A stretch of 64,000 nt of DNA, from positions 682,001 to 746,000 of the forward strand of contig CP079699.1 of NCBI GenBank assembly GCA_021383565.1, written 5' to 3'. Each line of letters starts with the position of its first letter. The stretch's first letter is position 1. Under the pieces are notes generated by a model. The model was not told where the DNA came from and ran no database searches. It was given only the letters and a program-made list of their open reading frames with translations. Shown one piece after another: positions 2,161 to 60,747 of the stretch. The translations under genes and the position numbers were made by a program. This DNA comes from Levilactobacillus brevis. Its GTDB lineage: Bacteria; Bacillota; Bacilli; Lactobacillales; Lactobacillaceae.

Positions 2161-2320
2161 AGTGGGATCGATTGTCAGCAAGGTTATGGGCGGTGGCGTA
2201 ACCGATTAGGGGAAGATGATGGAACTGTATCACTTATGTCATGGCAGCCTTAAGGGATTTGACAAGTCGTTCCATTCTTCAAACGGTAATGCGCGGCTTA
2301 ATTAGCTGATGATCGTCAGT

Positions 2321-2464
2321 GTAGCCGTGAGTGAGTCAAATTTGGTCTCAGCCGTGGGATTGTCCCAAGTGTTCTGCTTGGGAAAATGGCGACTTTGAGA
2401 CGTGGCTTTTTCCGTCCTTCCCACCGCGTTCCAGACCAAATTTGGCGAACGGCAAGGCGAGCCA
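2321..2464 (+). repeat. Structured dispersed repeat, copy A
   Basis: This copy matches the reverse complement of 40987-41165 over most of its length. The outer arms CAAATTTGGTC (2337-2347) and GACCAAATTTG (2433-2443) pair perfectly. Inside, GTGGGA pairs with TCCCAC. Stem TCCCAAG (2363-2369), loop TGTTCTG and CTTGGGA (2377-2383) form hairpin P3. The 3' half of the next hairpin (P4) is deleted here. The conserved end GGCGAACGGCAAGGCG lies at 2444-2459. No reading frame is apparent. The rest of the ftsY-ISL3 gap, 2161-2320, shows nothing I recognise. Confidence 0.8.
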
Positions 2465-2500
2465 CATCGAATCTAGCCGCTAACCAAGTTTGACCACGAA

Positions 2501-2590: not shown

Positions 2591-3850
2591 TTAGGCAGCC
2601 TTTTTAATTCCGAATACTAGATGAATCCTTAATCTAAAGCTACTAAAACAACCGAATCCGTAGCTGACTCGCTTGATTACTTTGATTTTATTATTGATAC
2701 CTTCCATTGGTCCATTAGAATAATTGTATTTTAGCGCATTGTACACAGATTCTTGGTGTTCTCTCAACGTATTTAACGGTGTTTCAAGCTCTTCGGAGTA
2801 ATCATTCTTCTTGTCTAGAATGGTTACTAGTTTGGACGTGTGACGATACTTGACGGCTCGCCGAACGGTCTGTAAAAGCTCATACGCTTGGCGTAATTCA
2901 TCATTGAAGCTGAGAATGTAATCGACCGTACTATTCTCAGTATTAATTCCTGAGAGATGAGTGAAATTATGATAGACGTTGAAGTTCAGCTTTTCATTAG
3001 GTTTTAAGAGTAGTTTCCAGTATCGTTTTAAGATCTTATGTTTGATATTTGAATTGGCATAGGACTTCATTATACGAACTCTCACACGATTGAAACCACG
3101 CATTATAGAACTCACGATGTGGAACCTATCGGTTACCACAATCGCGTTTGGAAAAACGGTTTCTGTCAATTGCGGATACGTGTAATTCATATCTGTCACA
3201 ATGATTTTCACGCCTTCTCGCGCAGCCTTAGTATATCGATTGAAGTATTTTTCGAGATCATACAGGGTTCGTGATTCAAGGATATCGATAAATTCGTTTC
3301 GCATACCGTCCATAAAGACAAAGCTCATTGCACCTTTGGCATCTTTGGTAGACTTGACTTCATCCATATTAATAACTGCTGGCAACCAGCTGTAATTTGT
3401 CTTAATATCCGGTTGGTAGCTACGCATGATTCGTAAAACACTCGTACTCGAAATGTTTAATTCGTTTGCGATATGTCGCATTGAAACCGTCTCACTGAGC
3501 TTTACTAAACACGAGATCCGGCTGACGTTAGAGATGGTGTGGTTTCGCTGAACTAACGACGTTTCTGCCAGAAAGTATTGATGGCATTGCTTACACTTGA
3601 AATTACGTTTTTTAAGGTGAAGTTTAACGTCTCGTTCAACGGCTTGTGGGAGTTTAACCGTGGTCCAACGCCAACCGTATTTGATAATGCTCTTCTGGTT
3701 CAAAACGCCACATTTAGTACAAGCTTTTGGACGGTAGTCTAAAAGTGCCTGTACCTTGAGTGGTCCCTTTACTTCTAAGGGATTCATTATTTTCAGTTTT
3801 TTGATATTAGGGTCTTTTATCCCCAGAATAATTTTAGTATCATTGGACAT
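2591..3850 (-). CDS. ISL3-family transposase
   Basis: This 419-residue DDE transposase would cut and move the surrounding element. An N-terminal zinc-binding domain is visible as CTKCG and CKQCHQYF (about residues 40-95). A helix-turn-helix around 120-145 (MRHIANELNISSTSVLRIM) follows. The catalytic core includes INMDEVKST, IIVTDMNY and the C-terminal glutamate in NGPMEGINNKIK. Length and motif order fit intact ISL3/IS1165-type enzymes, so the gene looks functional. The IS30 insertion lies upstream of it, about 75 bases before the start, and may have separated it from its promoter. Its base composition is clearly more AT-rich than the neighbouring housekeeping genes. Confidence 0.95.
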   Translation of the reverse strand: MSNDTKIILGIKDPNIKKLKIMNPLEVKGPLKVQALLDYRPKACTKCGVLNQKSIIKYGWRWTTVKLPQAVERDVKLHLKKRNFKCKQCHQYFLAETSLVQRNHTISNVSRISCLVKLSETVSMRHIANELNISSTSVLRIMRSYQPDIKTNYSWLPAVINMDEVKSTKDAKGAMSFVFMDGMRNEFIDILESRTLYDLEKYFNRYTKAAREGVKIIVTDMNYTYPQLTETVFPNAIVVTDRFHIVSSIMRGFNRVRVRIMKSYANSNIKHKILKRYWKLLLKPNEKLNFNVYHNFTHLSGINTENSTVDYILSFNDELRQAYELLQTVRRAVKYRHTSKLVTILDKKNDYSEELETPLNTLREHQESVYNALKYNYSNGPMEGINNKIKVIKRVSYGFGCFSSFRLRIHLVFGIKKAA

Positions 3851-3851
3851 A

Positions 3852-3923
3852 GGATATAGTCACTTTCTTTCTCTTGAAATGTGGTAGTGGATGGACATAG
3901 ATCTGCGACTATATCCCTTTTTT
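3852..3923. terminator. Hairpin with T tract abutting IS30 copy 1
   Basis: GGATATAGTC (3852-3861) pairs perfectly with GACTATATCC (3907-3916) across a 45-base loop and is followed by C and TTTTTT. It lies just upstream of the ISL3 transposase gene, where a hairpin could shield the transposase from outside transcription. The IS30 end begins at or just after the T tract; whether the T's belong to IS30 cannot be decided from two copies. Confidence 0.5.
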
Positions 3924-5047
3924 GTACGACGAATTTACAATTGAAGTGCAACAAGTAAGAAGATAAAAAAGGAACTCATAGCCTGAGTCCTGTAAAATGA
4001 AGTCACCACAACAATCATTTAAAGGAGATTTTAGGCTATGAGTTCGTACAAACATCTTACCTTAAAAGACCGAGAATGCATACTGTTAGGCGTCACTTTA
4101 AACGATAGCTATCAAGTTATTGCGGAGAAAATTGGCTGTTCTAAAGCCACTGTATCACGTGAAGTTACACGCAATGGCGGTCGTGATGCATACTCAGCTG
4201 TCAAAGCACAAGAGAGCTACCAAAGGCGCCGACTGAAGAGCCGCCGTCCTAGACTCCTAACTGACCTGAAATTACGAGATTTTGTCCTTCGCTGCATCGT
4301 TCAATACCAATGGTCTCCCGAACAAATCTCAGGGCGTTTACTTCACGAAAATAGTGGATGGCGAATTAGTTACAACACCATTTATCGCGGAATTGAACGT
4401 GATAATTTGGGAATTAAACGTAAGAGTCGTGGCGCTCGTGGTTTTGCCCGTAAACTCCGCCATCGTGGCAAAACTCGCAAGGTCAAAGGAACAATCAATG
4501 AACGACGGGGGCGGTTTAATGATGTTCCTTCAGTCCATGAGCGGCCAGTGTCGTGTGATAACCGGAGCTGGTTTGGCCATTGGGAAGGTGACACCGTTCG
4601 AGGTAAGACTGGACGTTCAGCTTTAGTTACGTTGGTGGACCGTAAATCACGTTACTTACTATCTCAACGAGTTTCCAAAGTAAACGCCAAGAACGTTACA
4701 CAAGCTATGATTGACTTATTGCATACTGTGACGCCCAAACGAGTTCGTACGCTTACGCCGGATCGTGGGACTGAATTCGCAAGATATCGTGAAATTAGTC
4801 AAGAGCTAGGTATTCCGGTCTATTTTCCAGATCCACACGCACCACAGCAACGGGGAACTAACGAGAATACAAATGGTCTTATTCGTGAGTATTTCCCAAA
4901 AGGAACTGATTTAGATCAACTCACTGACCAAGATATTTGTCAGTTCATTGAAACATTAAATAACCGACCACGTAAGGTCTTAGGCTGGAAGAGTCCATCA
5001 GAAATTTTCTTTGGAATAAAGTTGCGCTTGACTTGACAATTCGTCAC
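3924..5047 (+). mobile_element. IS30-family insertion sequence, copy 1 (nested in ISL3)
   Basis: The element is almost identical to 13654-14777. Its imperfect terminal repeats are GACGAATTTACAATTGAAG on the left (from 3928) and, reverse-complemented, GACGAATTGTCAAGTCAAG on the right (ending 5047). One complete transposase gene lies inside. A 13-bp inverted repeat, GAACTCATAGCCT (3972-3984) and AGGCTATGAGTTC (4033-4045), covers the transposase start codon. Exact outer boundaries are uncertain by a few bases because both copies share a preceding T tract. Confidence 0.9.
4038..5036 (+). CDS. IS30-family transposase (copy 1)
   Basis: A 332-residue DDE transposase. N-terminal helix-turn-helix regions include YQVIAEKIGCSKATVSREVT (about residues 22-41), which matches the IS30 specificity domain. 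The catalytic core shows GHWEGDTVRGK, LTPDRGTEF and NENTNGLIREYFPKGT, giving the DDE triad and the IS30 signature around the glutamate. The start is ATG with AAAGGAG 11 bases upstream. Translation may be blocked on read-through transcripts because the start codon lies in a 13-bp inverted repeat. It differs from copy 2 at one residue seen here (Ile in place of Val, base 4794), so transposition was recent. Confidence 0.97.
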   Translation: MSSYKHLTLKDRECILLGVTLNDSYQVIAEKIGCSKATVSREVTRNGGRDAYSAVKAQESYQRRRLKSRRPRLLTDLKLRDFVLRCIVQYQWSPEQISGRLLHENSGWRISYNTIYRGIERDNLGIKRKSRGARGFARKLRHRGKTRKVKGTINERRGRFNDVPSVHERPVSCDNRSWFGHWEGDTVRGKTGRSALVTLVDRKSRYLLSQRVSKVNAKNVTQAMIDLLHTVTPKRVRTLTPDRGTEFARYREISQELGIPVYFPDPHAPQQRGTNENTNGLIREYFPKGTDLDQLTDQDICQFIETLNNRPRKVLGWKSPSEIFFGIKLRLT

Positions 5048-13626: not shown

Positions 13627-13653
13627 GGCGGCAACGTTTCCTCGAGTTTTTTT
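13619..13653 (+). terminator. Hairpin and T tract at the end of khpA, abutting IS30 copy 2
   Basis: CTCGAG (13619-13624) pairs with CTCGAG (13641-13646), followed by TTTTTTT. The 5' arm overlaps the khpA stop codon. The IS30 copy begins right after. As with copy 1, some of the T's could belong to the element. Confidence 0.45.
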
Positions 13654-14777
13654 GTACGACGAATTTACAATTGAAGTGCAACAAGTAAGAAGATAAAAAA
13701 GGAACTCATAGCCTGAGTCCTGTAAAATGAAGTCACCACAACAATCATTTAAAGGAGATTTTAGGCTATGAGTTCGTACAAACATCTTACCTTAAAAGAC
13801 CGAGAATGCATACTGTTAGGCGTCACTTTAAACGATAGCTATCAAGTTATTGCGGAGAAAATTGGCTGTTCTAAAGCCACTGTATCACGTGAAGTTACAC
13901 GCAATGGCGGTCGTGATGCATACTCAGCTGTCAAAGCACAAGAGAGCTACCAAAGGCGCCGACTGAAGAGCCGCCGTCCTAGACTCCTAACTGACCTGAA
14001 ATTACGAGATTTTGTCCTTCGCTGCATCGTTCAATACCAATGGTCTCCCGAACAAATCTCAGGGCGTTTACTTCACGAAAATAGTGGATGGCGAATTAGT
14101 TACAACACCATTTATCGCGGAATTGAACGTGATAATTTGGGAATTAAACGTAAGAGTCGTGGCGCTCGTGGTTTTGCCCGTAAACTCCGCCATCGTGGCA
14201 AAACTCGCAAGGTCAAAGGAACAATCAATGAACGACGGGGGCGGTTTAATGATGTTCCTTCAGTCCATGAGCGGCCAGTGTCGTGTGATAACCGGAGCTG
14301 GTTTGGCCATTGGGAAGGTGACACCGTTCGAGGTAAGACTGGACGTTCAGCTTTAGTTACGTTGGTGGACCGTAAATCACGTTACTTACTATCTCAACGA
14401 GTTTCCAAAGTAAACGCCAAGAACGTTACACAAGCTATGATTGACTTATTGCATACTGTGACGCCCAAACGAGTTCGTACGCTTACGCCGGATCGTGGGA
14501 CTGAATTCGCAAGATATCGTGAAGTTAGTCAAGAGCTAGGTATTCCGGTCTATTTTCCAGATCCACACGCACCACAGCAACGGGGAACTAACGAGAATAC
14601 AAATGGTCTTATTCGTGAGTATTTCCCAAAAGGAACTGATTTAGATCAACTCACTGACCAAGATATTTGTCAGTTCATTGAAACATTAAATAACCGACCA
14701 CGTAAGGTCTTAGGCTGGAAGAGTCCATCAGAAATTTTCTTTGGAATAAAGTTGCGCTTGACTTGACAATTCGTCAC
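13654..14777 (+). mobile_element. IS30-family insertion sequence, copy 2
   Basis: Essentially identical to copy 1 at an offset of 9,730 bases, including terminal repeats and the inverted repeat that covers the transposase start (13702-13714 with 13763-13775). It separates khpA from rimM in the same orientation as both genes. Confidence 0.92.
13768..14766 (+). CDS. IS30-family transposase (copy 2)
   Basis: 332 residues, with the same helix-turn-helix and DDE motifs as the copy at 4038-5036. The only coding difference I see is G at 14524, giving Val in place of Ile. The frame is complete and probably active. The start codon is inside a potential 13-bp stem, so efficient translation may require a transcript starting within the element. 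Confidence 0.97.
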   Translation: MSSYKHLTLKDRECILLGVTLNDSYQVIAEKIGCSKATVSREVTRNGGRDAYSAVKAQESYQRRRLKSRRPRLLTDLKLRDFVLRCIVQYQWSPEQISGRLLHENSGWRISYNTIYRGIERDNLGIKRKSRGARGFARKLRHRGKTRKVKGTINERRGRFNDVPSVHERPVSCDNRSWFGHWEGDTVRGKTGRSALVTLVDRKSRYLLSQRVSKVNAKNVTQAMIDLLHTVTPKRVRTLTPDRGTEFARYREVSQELGIPVYFPDPHAPQQRGTNENTNGLIREYFPKGTDLDQLTDQDICQFIETLNNRPRKVLGWKSPSEIFFGIKLRLT

Positions 14778-14797
14778 CAATAAAATGGTTTCTTTCC

Positions 14798-14960
14798 GTT
14801 GCCGCCTTGCCGTTCGCAAAATATGAGCTGGAACGCGGTGGGGACGCGTCGAGCCTGAGGAGCGGTCTTGACGCTCGCTTGGAACCACCAAAGTCCGGTG
14901 TTTCCAAGTCGCCATTCTCTAAGAAAAACACTTAGAAAATCCCACGGCTGAGTAGTGGAT
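14798..14960 (-). repeat. Structured dispersed repeat, copy C1
   Basis: Read on the minus strand, this copy has CTCAGCCGTGGGA, hairpin P3 (arms 14914-14923 and 14931-14940, loop TGTTTTT), hairpin P4 (CTTGGAA with TTCCAAG plus CACC with GGTG; 14878-14908), TCCCCACCGCGTTCCAG and the end GCGAACGGCAAGGCGG (14801-14817). The P3 and P4 stems differ from those of other copies but still pair. Confidence 0.75.
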
Positions 14961-15079
14961 ATCCATTCTATTGAATGCGCCTCACACGAGTGACTGTAAG
15001 CGTGGTGGGACTGACCACCTCGCCGGAGGAGGCCAGTAATGGAGCCAGCCGTGACAACGGTGTTAGCTGGCGTTCTTGG

Positions 15080-15215
15080 CCAGCTTAGACCGTGGGACGA
15101 CTTGGGAGACTTACGGGGTGTGTAAGGCTTCCAAGCGAGGCGGAAGCCCGTTCTTTGGCTGAATCCGGTCCCCACAGCAGGCGGAATTGCTGGCTGCCGC
15201 AGGCCACGTTGTGGG
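15080..15215 (+). repeat. Structured dispersed repeat, copy C2 (partial, inverted relative to C1)
   Basis: CCGTGGGA (15090-15097) and TCCCCAC (15169-15174 region) form the P2 stem. Hairpin P4 is CTTGGGAGACTTAC (15101-15114) with GTAAGGCTTCCAAG (15122-15135). Hairpin P3 is missing. It shares CTGGC.GCCGCAG near 15190-15201 with sequence beside copy D (41259-41270). The stretch between C1 and C2 and on to rimM shows no gene. Confidence 0.6.
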
Positions 15216-21997: not shown

Positions 21998-23992
21998 ATG
22001 CGGTTAACGACACAAAAACTCACTGGGGTGGGGATGCTGATTACGCTGGGCATCGTTTACGGCGATATTGGCACCTCGCCCCTTTACGTCATGAATGCGA
22101 TTATCGATCAGGCGGGCCGGCACGAGTTGGCCACGATGACCCCCGTCATGCTGGGGAGTATTTCACTGATTTTTTGGACATTAATGTTGATTACCACGGT
22201 GAAATACATTCTGTTGGCGATGCGCGCCGATAACCGGCATGAAGGCGGCATTTTCGCCCTGTATGCGTTGGTTCGCAATCATGCCAAATGGCTGATCTTT
22301 CCGGCGCTAATTGGCGGGGCGGCTTTATTGGCCGACGGGACGTTGACGCCCGCGGTGACCGTGACCTCGGCGGTTGAGGGCTTGAAGAACCAGACGTTTG
22401 GGGCATTTCATTTCGGTGACGCGCAGGGCTGGGTCTTGCTGGTAGTCACGGGGATTCTAGTCGGTCTCTTTCTGGTCCAGCGGTTGGGAACCCAGCTCAT
22501 CGGCTGGTCGTTTGGGCCCCTCATGTTGATTTGGTTTAGCTTCATCGGCTTGGTGGGTCTGTACAATTTGGCGGCCTATCCGGCGATTCTTCGGGCTCTG
22601 TCGCCGACGTACGCGCTGGCTTTTCTGGTGAGCCCCGAGAATCGGCAAGGCATCTTCATCTTGGGAAGTATCTTTCTGGCCACAACCGGTGCGGAGGCCC
22701 TGTATTCGGATATGGGGCAGGTCGGCAAACGCAACATCTACGGGACCTGGCCGTTTGTCTATCTGATGTTGATGCTCAGCTATCTGGGCCAGGGAGCGTG
22801 GATGATTCGCCACGCCGATGCGCCGGGCGTCAATCGGTTGGTCAACCCTTTCTACGCGATGGTGCCGGCCAACTGGCGGCTGTTTGCGATTGGCATTGCA
22901 ACCGTGGCGGCAATTATTGCGTCACAGGCCCTGATTACCGGGTCCTATACGCTGGTGCATGAAGCCATGGGCCTCAAGCTCTTGCCGCGATTGCGTATCA
23001 AGTTTCCGGGCAATGAAATTAGCCAGCTCTACATTTCAACGGTTAATTGGCTCCTGTGTGGCGTCACGTTGAGCATCGTCTGGTTCTTCCGGACCTCGAG
23101 TAACATGGAGGCCGCCTATGGTCTGGCGATTACGATTACCATGCTGATGACGACGCTGCTGTTGCACGCGTTTCTGCGGCAACGGGGACATCGGCTGGTG
23201 GCGACGGTCTTCGTGAGCGCGTTTGGCCTGCTGGAAAGTCTCTTCTTACTGGCGAGTCTGGCCAAATTCGTCCACGGCGGGTACGTGACGCTATGTTTGA
23301 CGCTGGTCATTCTCACCGTCATGGTGTTCTGGTATTACGGCAATCAGCGACGCAGTGCCCATGTGGAGGAGTCCGAACGCGTCTCGCTATTGGATTTTCT
23401 ACCGCAGTTAACGGCGTTGAGTCGTGACGATCAGGTGCCGCTGTTTGCGACGAATCTGGTTTACGTGGGTCGGGTGACGCCGGATCATGAGATTAAACGA
23501 GCGGTGGTCTACTCGATTCTGGACCAACAGCCGAAGCGGGCGACGGTCTACTGGTTTGTGACGGTCAACGAGGCCGATACGCCGTATGAATGCAGTTATA
23601 CCGTGGAAACGTTAGGAACGGATAACGTGATGGACGTGCAGCTGTACCTGGGCTTTAAGAAGCCCCAGCGCTTAAATGTCTACCTCCGTCAGATTGTCAA
23701 TGACTTGTTGGCAACGGGGGTCTTGCCGGATCAGACACCGCGCTATTCGAGCGAGCCAAGGCGGCAGGTCGGTAACTTTAAATTTGTCATCCTCAATCAA
23801 CAATTTCAGGATTTGGGTGCCCAAGATGATTTGCCGGCGGGGGATCGATTGCTGATTGGCGGTCGGCTCCTGCTGCAGCGGGTCAGCCTGTCACCTCAGC
23901 ACTGGTACGGCTTGGAATTTAGCGACGTTGTCGAGGAGCGGGTGCCCTTATTTATTGGACATGCGCCGGATCGGACGTTGCGGCGACGGTAA
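21998..23992 (+). CDS. kup: Kup-type potassium uptake protein
   Basis: A 664-residue K+/H+ symporter of the KUP/HAK family. The N-terminus includes [14 protein letters not shown] (about residues 15-28), the family hallmark, and the first helices include [11 protein letters not shown] and [19 protein letters not shown]. About 12 membrane helices are followed by a cytoplasmic tail of about 220 residues. Length is typical. The stop codon lies within the conserved end of the dispersed structured repeat, so the final codons come from or have merged with that element. Confidence 0.96.
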
Positions 23993-24008
23993 GGCGGCCA
24001 GTACGCGA
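23983..24008 (+). repeat. Terminal core of the structured repeat, overlapping the kup stop
   Basis: GCGACGGTAAGGCGGCCAGT followed by ACGCGA matches the conserved end GCGAACGGTAAGGCGGCCAG + TACGCGA found at 40987-41013 with one base missing. The TAA at 23990-23992 is the kup stop. Only the terminal segment of the repeat is recognisable. Confidence 0.7.
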
Positions 24009-24100
24009 CTAACATATTATAGTGGATGGCGTCCTTGTCACACTACGGATTCTAGCTGTTTTATAGCTTTCAACCTTTAGGCTTGAATCAAATTTAGCCG

Positions 24101-40981: not shown

Positions 40982-40986
40982 CTGAT

Positions 40987-41165
40987 CGCGTACTGGCCGC
41001 CTTACCGTTCGCCAAATTTGGTCTGGAACGCGGTGGGCAGGACGGGCCAAGCCTGAGAAACGGTCTTTTCCCTCGCTTTGAGCCGAAAGCCCGCGTCTCA
41101 AAGACGCCAGTTTCCAAGCAGAACACTTGGAAACTCCCACGGCTGAGACCGAATTTAACTCACTC
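40987..41165 (-). repeat. Structured dispersed repeat, copy D (fullest copy)
   Basis: Read on the minus strand: GTGAGTGAGTTAAATTCGGT, CTCAGCCGTGGGA, hairpin P3 (AGTTTCCAAG, loop TGTTCTG, CTTGGAAACT; 41109-41135), hairpin P4 (CTTTGAG with CTCAAAG; 41076-41103), CCCACCGCGTTCCAGACC, AAATTTGGCGAACGGTAAGG and CGGCCAGTACGCGA. It starts 6 bases after the rsmF stop. No reading frame is supported. Confidence 0.85.
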
Positions 41166-41289
41166 ACGGCTACATGAGGTGTCTAAGCTAGCCGAACGTG
41201 GTCACTCCAGCGATGTCATCGCACGTTCAGTAGTTTTCAACCATCGTAACCGGAATCTCTGGCAGCCGCAGATGGTGTTGATAACTAGG

Positions 41290-41348
41290 TTAATGGCGGT
41301 AAGTTTTGTCAGCTGGGGATTGGAGCATGCTTGCGAACTTTCAATCTT
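41290..41348 (+). repeat. Second repeat family, copy 1
   Basis: The 59 bases from TTAATGGCGGTAAGT to CTTTCAATCTT align without gaps to 54814-54872 with about 13 differences, almost all transitions. It adjoins copy D of the structured repeat. Confidence 0.65.
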
Positions 41349-41374
41349 TAGTCATTTAATACATCATCAAAAAG

Positions 41375-41436
41375 ACTCCCCGGTGGGCGACCATACTGAT
41401 GTTTACAATCAGCGTGATCGTCACCGGGGAGTTTTA
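41375..41436. terminator. Bidirectional terminator at the end of the mevalonate operon
   Basis: ACTCCCCGGTG (41375-41385) pairs with CACCGGGGAGT (41422-41432), with further pairing inside. T's follow in both directions. Confidence 0.85.
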
Positions 41437-41460
41437 GCTTTTTGTGGGGGGCAAAAAGCG

Positions 41461-42501
41461 TTATTTCGTTAAGTCGCGTTGTCGGCAATAATTTTCTAAT
41501 TCGGGTGATAATAGGAGCTGTTTTTCGCGGAGTGCCGCCAAATTGCGGGTACCAAGTAACGTCATAATCGTTTTCAGACCGGTTTGCCAATCCAAGAGCA
41601 TCTGGATTGTCGTGGCCTCGTCCGTCTTGATGAGGCTATGCAGAATCCGGCCGGCACTGCCGACGACGGTTGCCCCTAAGGCCAAGGCTTTGGCCGCATC
41701 GAGAGGCTGGCGAACGCCACCGGTCGCAATGGCGGTGAGCTCTGGAACCTGCCGCGCTTCGAACAGCGATTCAACGGTCGACTGACCCCAGCCAGCCAGG
41801 TAGTCGAGTTCCTTTTCCGGGCGGCGGAAGTTTTCAATTTGGGCAAAATTCGTGCCGCCACGGCCACCGAGGTCCACGTATTGCACGCCCACGCTGGCCA
41901 ACTGGGTCAACGTTTCGTGAGCCATGCCAAAACCGACTTCCTTAACGATTACCGGGACGTCGAGGGCGGCCACAATTTCTCCAATCTCGTCCAGCCAGTG
42001 GAAGGCGCGGTCCCCCTCGGGCATCACCAGTTCCTGAGCGGCGTTGATGTGAATCTCCAGAGCGTCGGCGGCCAACATCTCAACCGCCGCGCGGGCCTGA
42101 GCCACGGAATGACCGGCACCGACGTTAGCAAAAACGAGACCGTCCGGATTATTTTCCCGGAGAACGGTGAAGGTGGGCGCCGCACTGGCGTCTTTTAACG
42201 CAATGCTCTGCGATCCACTGGCCACGGGCATCCCCGTGGCCGCCGCAATCCGCCCGAGCATGGCGTTAACCTTGCCCGTTCGTGGACTGCCGCCGGTCAT
42301 GGCTTCAATCATTAACGGCACTGGTAGCGTCAGCGGTCCTAGTTGCGTGTGAAGGTCCACATCGGCATAGGCCATCTCAGGGAGACCTTGGTGAATGAAA
42401 CGCAGCTGGTCAAATTGACTCGTTGCGGTGGGTTGATAGAATTTTTCAGCCAGCGAAAGGTGTTCATCCTTCCGGTGGGCGTGCCGTGAGAGTTCTGCCA
42501 T
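41461..42501 (-). CDS. fni: Type 2 isopentenyl-diphosphate delta-isomerase
   Basis: A 346-residue FMN- and NADPH-dependent enzyme that interconverts isopentenyl and dimethylallyl diphosphate, the last step of this mevalonate operon. [44 protein letters not shown] and [20 protein letters not shown] are characteristic of type 2 isomerases, with the FMN phosphate site in [27 protein letters not shown] precedes the ATG. It is the last gene, 11 bases after mvaK2. Confidence 0.97.
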
Positions 42502-51489: not shown

Positions 51490-51535
51490 CGAGATTTAAG
51501 ACTATCTCTTTAATTGTAAGTGTCGGGCGTGAATG

Positions 51536-51565
51536 GCTGGCGAACGGCAAGGCGGCCAGTACGCC
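51536..51565 (+). repeat. Terminal core of the structured repeat, copy F
   Basis: GGCGAACGGCAAGGCGGCCA followed by GTACGCC matches the end of copy D almost exactly. It lies 47 bases after dnaD and directly before a bidirectional terminator. The rest of the repeat is absent. Confidence 0.75.
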
Positions 51566-54813: not shown

Positions 54814-54872
54814 TTAATGGCGATAAGTCCTGCCACCTGGGGACTGGGGCGTGTTCGCAAACTTTCAACCTT
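54814..54872 (+). repeat. Second repeat family, copy 2
   Basis: Aligned without gaps to 41290-41348. It ends GCAAACTTTCAACCTT; a short match, GCTTTCAACCTT, also occurs at 24066-24077. The 460-base gap around it, between divergent recU and the galactosidase gene, shows no coding frame. Confidence 0.6.
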
Positions 54873-55000
54873 AACCGCCCACTTTAAGACGAAACGCTGA
54901 GTTGGTAAAGTTAGCGTCCCAGCGTATTTAGTCGCGGATCTACGGTGGCTGGCTCACTGCTTTGGATACCGCAACTGTTGAAAAATACGTTTCAGCCGAG

Positions 55001-58350: not shown

Positions 58351-58749
58351 CTGGTGTAAATCCTGAGTAATCGCGGTCGGCTTTTGTCGGCTGAGGAAAG
58401 TCCATGCTCGCACAGACTGCGATGTCTGTAGTGTTCGTGCTCGGTGAAAAAATAAGCCGGGGGACGTTAGCAATAACGTTACGGCGGGAAAAAACGGCTA
58501 CGGCTTCGGCTATGCCCGAGTATCCCTGAAAAGTGCCACAGTGACGATACGTCTAGGGAAATCTAGGCGGTGGAACGCGGTAAACCCCTCGAGCGGGCAA
58601 CCCAAACTTTTGGTAGGGGCGCTTCACATATGGAAATGAACGAAATGTGGGGGGAGAGGAAACTCTCGAGATAGATGATTACTGCCAGTCAGCCGTTTGC
58701 CTGAAACGGTTGGGTGGTACAAAACATGGCTTACAGGGATTTACACCAT
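58351..58749 (+). ncRNA. rnpB: RNase P RNA, class B
   Basis: The catalytic RNA of RNase P, which trims tRNA 5' ends. The 5' strand GGTGTAAATCC (58353-58363) pairs with GGATTTACACC near the 3' end (58737-58747). The conserved GAGGAAAGTCC lies near 58394, GGTAAACCCCTCGAGCG near 58578 and GAAACTC-type and AGATAGATGATTACTGCC segments near 58670. The fold and order fit the Bacillus-type RNA, and its place between gpsB and rlmL matches Bacillus. Confidence 0.95.
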
Positions 58750-60610: not shown

Positions 60611-60658
60611 GCTGGTCGCCTTACTGTTCGCATCAGCTAGGCTGGAACGCTGAGACTT
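60611..60658 (-). repeat. Structured dispersed repeat, copy G (short)
   Basis: On the minus strand GCGAACAGTAAGGCGACCAG (60612-60631) matches the repeat end, preceded by GTCTCAGCGTTCCAG, which looks like the two flanks joined by a large internal deletion. It follows the HIT gene by about 25 bases. Confidence 0.6.
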
Positions 60659-60682
60659 AAAAGTAAATGGTAAAAAATAAAA

Positions 60683-60747
60683 GGTGGTCAGCGACAACTG
60701 ACCACCCAGCAGGTCAGTCACCGCGGTTACGCGGGGCTGGCTTTTTT
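60683..60747 (+). terminator. Double hairpin terminator after the HIT gene
   Basis: GGTGGTCAG (60683-60691) pairs perfectly with CTGACCACC (60698-60706). A second hairpin uses CCAGC..CCGCG, loop GTTA and CGCGG.GCTGG, then CTTTTTTG. The remaining 60750-60900 shows nothing I recognise. Confidence 0.75.

Follow-up and report, generated by a model that had tools for sequence, protein, structure and literature searches.

Downstream of rsmF in Levilactobacillus brevis, a food organism, lies one copy of a multi-stem repeat that recurs across the 64-kb stretch of DNA analysed here (64,000 nucleotides, hereafter the window). The locus raises the question of what kind of sequence is found at so many sites and keeps hairpins whose two strands change together. 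According to the original prediction, the repeat could be a lacto-type motif, a MITE or a new structured RNA, and its paired changes were taken as a sign of a selected fold. Here, covariance modelling, genome searches and inspection of the element ends were combined in order to describe the fold, the boundaries, the mobility and the distribution of the repeat.

The structured module and its copies in the window

The recurring module is ~180 nt long and consists of a stem P1-P2-P3 followed by a four-way junction with the hairpins P4, P5 and P6. In an alignment of 29 copies from the genome of the window and from other genomes of the genus, 57 base pairs were recognised, 35 of which carry compensatory double changes. 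The covariance model R1 (185 positions, 57 pairs) gave 107 matches in 85 sources at E values up to 1e-25, corresponding to 102 distinct rows; the difference is due to overlapping stretches and loci, and the set includes sequences used to build R1. Standard pairs made up 97.5% of the 5761 pair cells of these rows, and pairing fell to 33-48% when the partners were slid by 1-3 columns. Two-sided changes were present in 42 of the 57 pairs compared with a shuffled mean of 25.4, and none of the 500 shuffles reached the observed value on any of five measures. The stems reported to change as pairs are thus real, and the fold has clearly been kept by evolution.

The dispersed repeat itself was confirmed, and it proved to be larger than reported, with a module of ~180 nt. 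The end motif GCGAACRGYAAGGYG is exact at six of the eight listed sites (2445+, 14803-, 38483+, 40998-, 51540+ and 60617-), has three mismatches at 23982 and is absent from the copy at 15080-15215. Four of the eight listed copies stand as modules (Table 1), three are end fragments with only 10-12.5 bits and E values of 0.03-0.18 (38420, 51515 and 60611), and the core at 23982 was not reported by the model. The copy at 15080-15215, listed as one of the same type, had to be reassigned: most of it is held by the U-type module starting at 15015, the divergent partner described below.

Table 1. Features of the repeat within the window
Feature	Position	Strand	Basis
Target-site duplication TCATTTAA, left copy; contains rsmF stop codon TAA	40974-40981		sequence
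Whole mobile element, 370 bp	40982-41351		read from sequence
Complete structured module P1-P6, four-way junction	40992-41177	-	covariance model, 191 bits, E 1.7e-56
Hairpin P6, approximate ends	41043-41072	-	model alignment
Hairpin P5, approximate ends (P4 of the original prediction)	41074-41106	-	model alignment
Hairpin P4, model positions 43-69 (P3 of the original prediction)	41109-41135	-	model alignment
Terminal inverted repeat CTTTCAATCTTTAG, 1 mismatch to end pattern	41338-41351	-	end-pattern search
Target-site duplication TCATTTAA, right copy	41352-41359		sequence
Structured module, P5/P6 part deleted	2317-2465	+	114 bits
Structured module, 5′ strand of P1/P2 decayed; left half of divergent pair	14797-14982	-	104 bits
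Partner (U-type) module, right half of divergent pair	15015-15211	+	29 bits, E 2.9e-7
Right-end fragment: module 3′ end, right flank, exact terminal repeat 24067-24080	23982-24080	+	sequence; unreported by model
Fragment with 3′ strand of P2/P1	38420-38503	+	12.0 bits
Fragment, module 3′ end only	51515-51560	+	10.1 bits
Fragment, module 3′ end, clear part ~60611-60658	60611-60744	-	12.5 bits

Several other features were noted in the window. A gene for an ISL3-type transposase (Pfam DDE_Tnp_ISL3) is located at 2591-3850 (-), near the module copy at 2317-2465, and a terminal-repeat-like sequence with two mismatches lies at 54862-54875 (-), where no module was reported nearby. Identical 300-bp stretches at 3918-4217 and 13648-13947 start two ORFs of 332 aa (4038-5036 (+) and 13768-14766 (+)), so that one insertion sequence is probably present here in two recent copies; the second ORF has rve and HTH_38 domains and is presumably IS30-like. 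Two ORFs, one of 275 aa and one of 183 aa, are enclosed by a 29-nt inverted repeat (86%; 24131-24159/25531-25559) that resembles IS3-type element ends. RNase P RNA of bacterial class B was identified at 58359-58738 (+) with 334.6 bits.

Element ends, likely transposase partner and divergent pairing

At the rsmF 3′ end, the duplication TCATTTAA is perfect on both sides of the 370-bp element, in which one terminal repeat is reduced to CTGA and the partner module is mostly deleted. No ORF of at least 80 aa is located wholly inside the element, and two ORFs overlap part of it; the simple ORF caller classed the site as co-directional by means of a 97-aa ORF at 41179-41472, which is a caller error. 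With the RsmF proteins of L. hammesii and Lactobacillus sp. HBUAS51381, the RsmF encoded here shares 90-91% identity. Among 13 named relatives (13 of 79 rsmF loci, with 420 bp read in each), the element is present in L. hammesii, L. angrenensis and L. suantsaiihabitans, and the rsmF 3′ site of the remaining 10 is without it. A model scan of all 79 loci gave 14 matches in 11 loci: 4 of them mark the rsmF 3′ site of these three species, and the other 10 lie at different places in the flanks.

Full elements are bounded by 14-bp terminal inverted repeats, CTRAAGGTTGAAAG. Allowing at most one mismatch, this pattern was found 74 times in the L. brevis genome and the reversed control twice. Out of 39 pairs of terminal repeats from all loci, 18 are flanked by an exact target duplication of 7-9 bp, compared with 0.45 expected from shuffled pairing; five have an 8-bp duplication with one mismatch and 16 have no recognisable duplication. 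After removal of three pairs of insertion-sequence (IS) size, exact duplications of 7-9 bp remained in 17 of 36, and the duplication of the IS itself measures 8 bp. Pairs below IS size are short, spanning 252-894 bp.

One of the IS-sized loci (L240) comes from G013, a genome of the same genus, where terminal repeats 1559 bp apart enclose a transposase of 450 aa whose match to NCBIfam NF049925 (IS4 family; cut-off 250) reaches 470 bits. Its ends, CTAAAGGTTGAAAG, are common to the mobile elements, and the 8-bp duplication CTGATTAA is present on both sides. The 1559-bp IS4-family element is the likely mobiliser of the repeat. No module was detected inside it, the one intact IS examined. Relatives of its transposase (E≤1e-20) are encoded in 14 of 35 genomes of the genus, some of them adjoining the same ends, and no relative was found at this threshold in the genome of the window, so that mobilisation there would be past or from outside. 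Blastn searches of plasmid and phage collections, which may lack the entries most closely related to this genome, gave no module match and therefore no vector.

Terminal repeats shared with an IS4-family element, a matching duplication length and a short length without a transposase gene are the properties of a MITE of the IS4 family. IS200/IS605-type ends and omega RNAs are not known to have target duplications or terminal inverted repeats, and the presence of both sets the repeat apart from them.

An intact partner was found only outside the genome of the window, in G013, and two kinds of candidates for an autonomous partner inside it were rejected. The 2.1-kb pair of terminal repeats at L096 2023-4160 is an IS3-type two-ORF element, called as such from its ORFs only, which lies inside a copy and splits the module of its host. 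Moreover, 15 loci with terminal repeats were read for a partner, and those without a full module turned out to be end fragments, a small element (L216) or the bare end motif (L190, L195 and L203).

The ends differ by genome. In a second genome (G030), the usual ends are missing at most of the 17 loci inspected. Ends of the sequence CTAAAGGTTGCAAG are found in this genome at L238 and L221, and in G031 (L247) ends of the form CTGAAACTTGAAAG surround a transposase 50% identical to that of L240. The combination of genome-specific ends and a diverged transposase hints at a co-evolution of ends and transposase.

Within the elements, modules are paired divergently, minus then plus, with their 3′ ends facing outward, as exemplified by the two modules between 14797 and 15211. 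This order was found in all 8 cases of neighbouring modules less than 600 bp apart in the window and 20 sampled stretches of the same genome, and in all 10 cases in 20 stretches of G030 (the samples being two 400-kb sets plus the window, with weaker opposite-strand matches at the same site left out). Likewise, all 26 distinct two-module loci (57 sources) hold a divergent pair, one of them (L045) with an additional weak same-strand match. When 28 copies of the partner module were aligned and folded separately, an identical topology was obtained with 57 pairs, of which 33 are doubly changed. An alignment of the best 30 copies of the L. brevis genome showed conserved context of up to ~600 bp around the ~180-bp core, and the complete mobile unit accordingly comprises ~600 bp with two modules of ~180-200 nt each. 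The repeat had thus been drawn too small, and its divergent pairing had been missed. Paired modules without the usual ends were observed in G030 (L237 6597-7021, L237 14841-15336 and L227 17766-18231); read by eye, the flanks of their two sides are partly complementary and differ between copies.

Distribution, selection and competing explanations

The search with a covariance model of this genome and of related genomes, proposed along with the original prediction, was carried out. In the L. brevis genome at least 122 matches were obtained at E 0.01 (150 of 846 candidates scored), and the repeat occupies about 100 sites. In a draw from the family, at least 65 of 251 genomes and at least 10 of 40 genera were matched (10 candidates scored per genome). 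The order-wide draw, a coarse sample, gave matches in at least 10 of 295 genomes, all within Lactobacillaceae (8 scored per genome). G002, G008 and G013 had no match at the DNA level, yet modules were found in them by the model (150 candidates scored per genome). All of these counts are lower bounds, since only some of the candidates were scored and weak members may be missed. Lactiplantibacillus xiangfangensis is a named holder of an element with ends and the duplication TTAATAA.

Taken together, the repeat is probably a non-autonomous MITE that an IS4-family transposase moves in trans and whose cargo is a divergent pair of structured RNAs. This reading is built on the covarying fold of both modules, the G-U polarity of the module type first described, the divergent pairing, the ends, the duplications and the IS4-family element with the same ends, all of which were observed directly. 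Less easily reconciled with it are the lack of a transposase relative (E≤1e-20) in the L. brevis genome, the 16 of 39 pairs of terminal repeats without a recognisable duplication, the many G030 loci without such ends and the private substitutions of the L. brevis genome described below, which kept the pairing just slightly more often than the neutral estimate. The transposase would act on the 14-bp ends (CTRAAGGTTGMAAG) and duplicate 7-9 bp of the target. The two modules would be paralogous and, as we infer, act as RNA. A read-through transcript across the whole element would then carry one sense module in either direction, so that the orientation of the insertion would be indifferent and 3′ flanks would be tolerated as target sites. 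The main reason for keeping the RNA may be that it is needed by active lineages, possibly because insertions are then tolerated, because RNA is stabilised or because a factor promoting mobility is bound. Going further, an orientation-proof mobile RNA cargo with a specific function in transposition, in the fate of mRNA 3′ ends or with a dedicated factor, shared by many Lactobacillaceae, is a tentative idea that may well prove wrong. A role as terminator was discarded: in a scan of one full element no terminator-like site was found, compared with 0.7 expected, and there was one weak promoter-like site.

A different view is that the modules are mainly regulatory RNAs of the host, i.e., 3′ UTR elements or sRNAs that were spread by transposition and are now kept copy by copy for the flanking genes. 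Their gene context is in line with it, as modules are almost never located between divergent genes: none of 19 classified modules of the L. brevis genome compared with 58 of 259 intergenic gaps (21 of 31 matches used), and one of 24 in G030 compared with 42 of 228 gaps (29 of 45 matches used), where two further modules lie inside long ORFs. These contexts come from an automatic, simple ORF caller with at least one error. The placement of copies shortly after gene ends, noted for the window, also holds beyond it. Some module loci also hold known leaders, a TPP riboswitch above the curated cut-off at L049 1154-1259 and T-box leaders just below it at L048 1152-1397 and L050 1694-1939. In G030, moreover, one-sided private substitutions kept the pairing in 8 of 13 cases compared with a neutral estimate of 17.6% (p 0.0005). 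Against this view, the corresponding value in the L. brevis genome is near the neutral estimate (8 of 25 compared with ~18%, p 0.07). A coarser count of kept versus broken pairs gave 10 versus 25 there and 10 versus 8 in G030. Also against this view, the rsmF site is empty in most relatives read, several fragments in the window are decayed, and there is no constant orientation to neighbouring genes, the few unpaired modules compared by eye with co-directional genes having no clear orientation bias. Retention for flanking genes is therefore an unlikely main cause. Selection on the fold is thus strongly supported for the lineages that spread, and for the individual resident copies it is no more than suggested.

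The fold could also work as single-stranded DNA, for example in replication-coupled transposition, and not as RNA. The repeat is a mobile element with outward modules, each of which could take up its fold at a terminus of an excised strand, and in the available part of a survey the structure of one repeat motif is considered to matter possibly as DNA (PMC11109978). The strand on which the repeat was originally described has 170 G-U and 46 A-C combinations, and G-U prevails over A-C in 27 versus 10 pairs (p 0.008; 55 pairs with at least 70% Watson-Crick pairing). Such an excess, established for the module type first described, is expected of a strand that folds as RNA and less of one that folds as DNA. 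The polarity is suggestive rather than proof, since the model to which the alignment was fitted represents the sense strand and was built in part with these sequences, so that G-U may have been favoured. In addition, the inverted ends and the duplications suggest a DDE transposase acting on double strands, and the IS4-family partner carries no module. We consider a role as single-stranded DNA to be improbable, and the MITE with an RNA cargo remains the preferred reading.

The paired changes could also be mutational, caused without selection by template switching that perfects hairpins or by gene conversion. P4, P5 and P6 are indeed hairpins of local extent, and the copies are all members of a single repeat family. 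The arms of helix P2, however, are more than 100 nt apart and two-sided changes were found in 13 of its 14 pairs, so that local hairpin correction is insufficient as a cause, while the junction motifs CUCAGCCGUGGGA, AGACCG and CGGUAAGGCG as well as the loop motifs stay nearly invariant in the 29-copy alignment. This explanation was already disfavoured and is very improbable, and the argument from covariation to a selected fold holds also for the long-range helix.

Membership in a family already in Rfam can practically be dismissed, as the comparison with 4227 families at the gathering threshold, lacto motifs included, gave no module match in the window, the single overlap with the element in a lax search was Cis52 with 18.6 bits compared with a cut-off of 56, and no hit of the lax searches overlapped the modules of 30 related loci. 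With terminal repeats, duplications and a covarying fold without an Rfam match, two of the three identities initially considered, MITE and new structured RNA, are true together, and the third, a known motif, is very improbable.

Comparison with known systems

A covarying four-way-junction module of ~180 nt, present in at least 65 of 251 genomes of the family, is absent from Rfam 15, and the literature searches performed here returned no paper describing the repeat. The finding connects an insertion-sequence family with a conserved RNA-like fold; to our knowledge, a fold of this kind tied to a DNA transposon with a DDE enzyme is unusual. It raises the question of why a jumping element keeps a complex RNA, and keeps it in two divergent copies.

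The repeat bcr1, one of several related interspersed repeats of the Bacillus cereus group, has a different sequence, and its target duplication is TTTAT, 5 bp in length. In the parts of the publications available, bcr1 is described as a MITE-like repeat of ~150-170 bp with tens of copies, often in UTRs (PMC2267715, PMC3446304). The many intergenic copies, the conserved fold, here found to covary, and the MITE-like character are common to both (PMC2267715, PMC3446304). Unlike bcr1, the present repeat has divergent pairs, an IS4-family partner with shared ends, duplications of 7-9 bp and an occurrence in 10 sampled genera.

Mobile or repeat sequence candidates such as MRSC-65-2, structured motifs from screens of bacterial intergenic regions, are characterised in the available part of a survey as multi-copy motifs without constant gene orientation that are thought to be selfish, MRSC-65-2 having a conserved UYCCGG repeat and occasionally a nearby transposase (PMC11109978). 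The present repeat is likewise a multi-copy structured motif without constant orientation to genes, and differs from MRSC-65-2 as described there in its identified ends, duplications and partner IS.

With MITEs of the IS4 family, the repeat shares ends common with an IS4-family element and an equal duplication length. Its interior, in contrast, is a structured module pair absent from the one intact IS examined, and the element is thus not a simple deletion product of the IS. REP/BIME palindromes, which are associated with RAYT transposases, are, like the present repeat, dispersed, structured and extragenic. REPs are described in the available text as palindromes of 20-40 bp (PMC3733652), whereas the repeat consists of ~180-nt junction modules with terminal repeats and target duplications and thereby falls outside this class. 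Structured mobile repeats as such are already known; the repeat of L. brevis differs from them in the twin arrangement of the modules and in the identified ends and partner.
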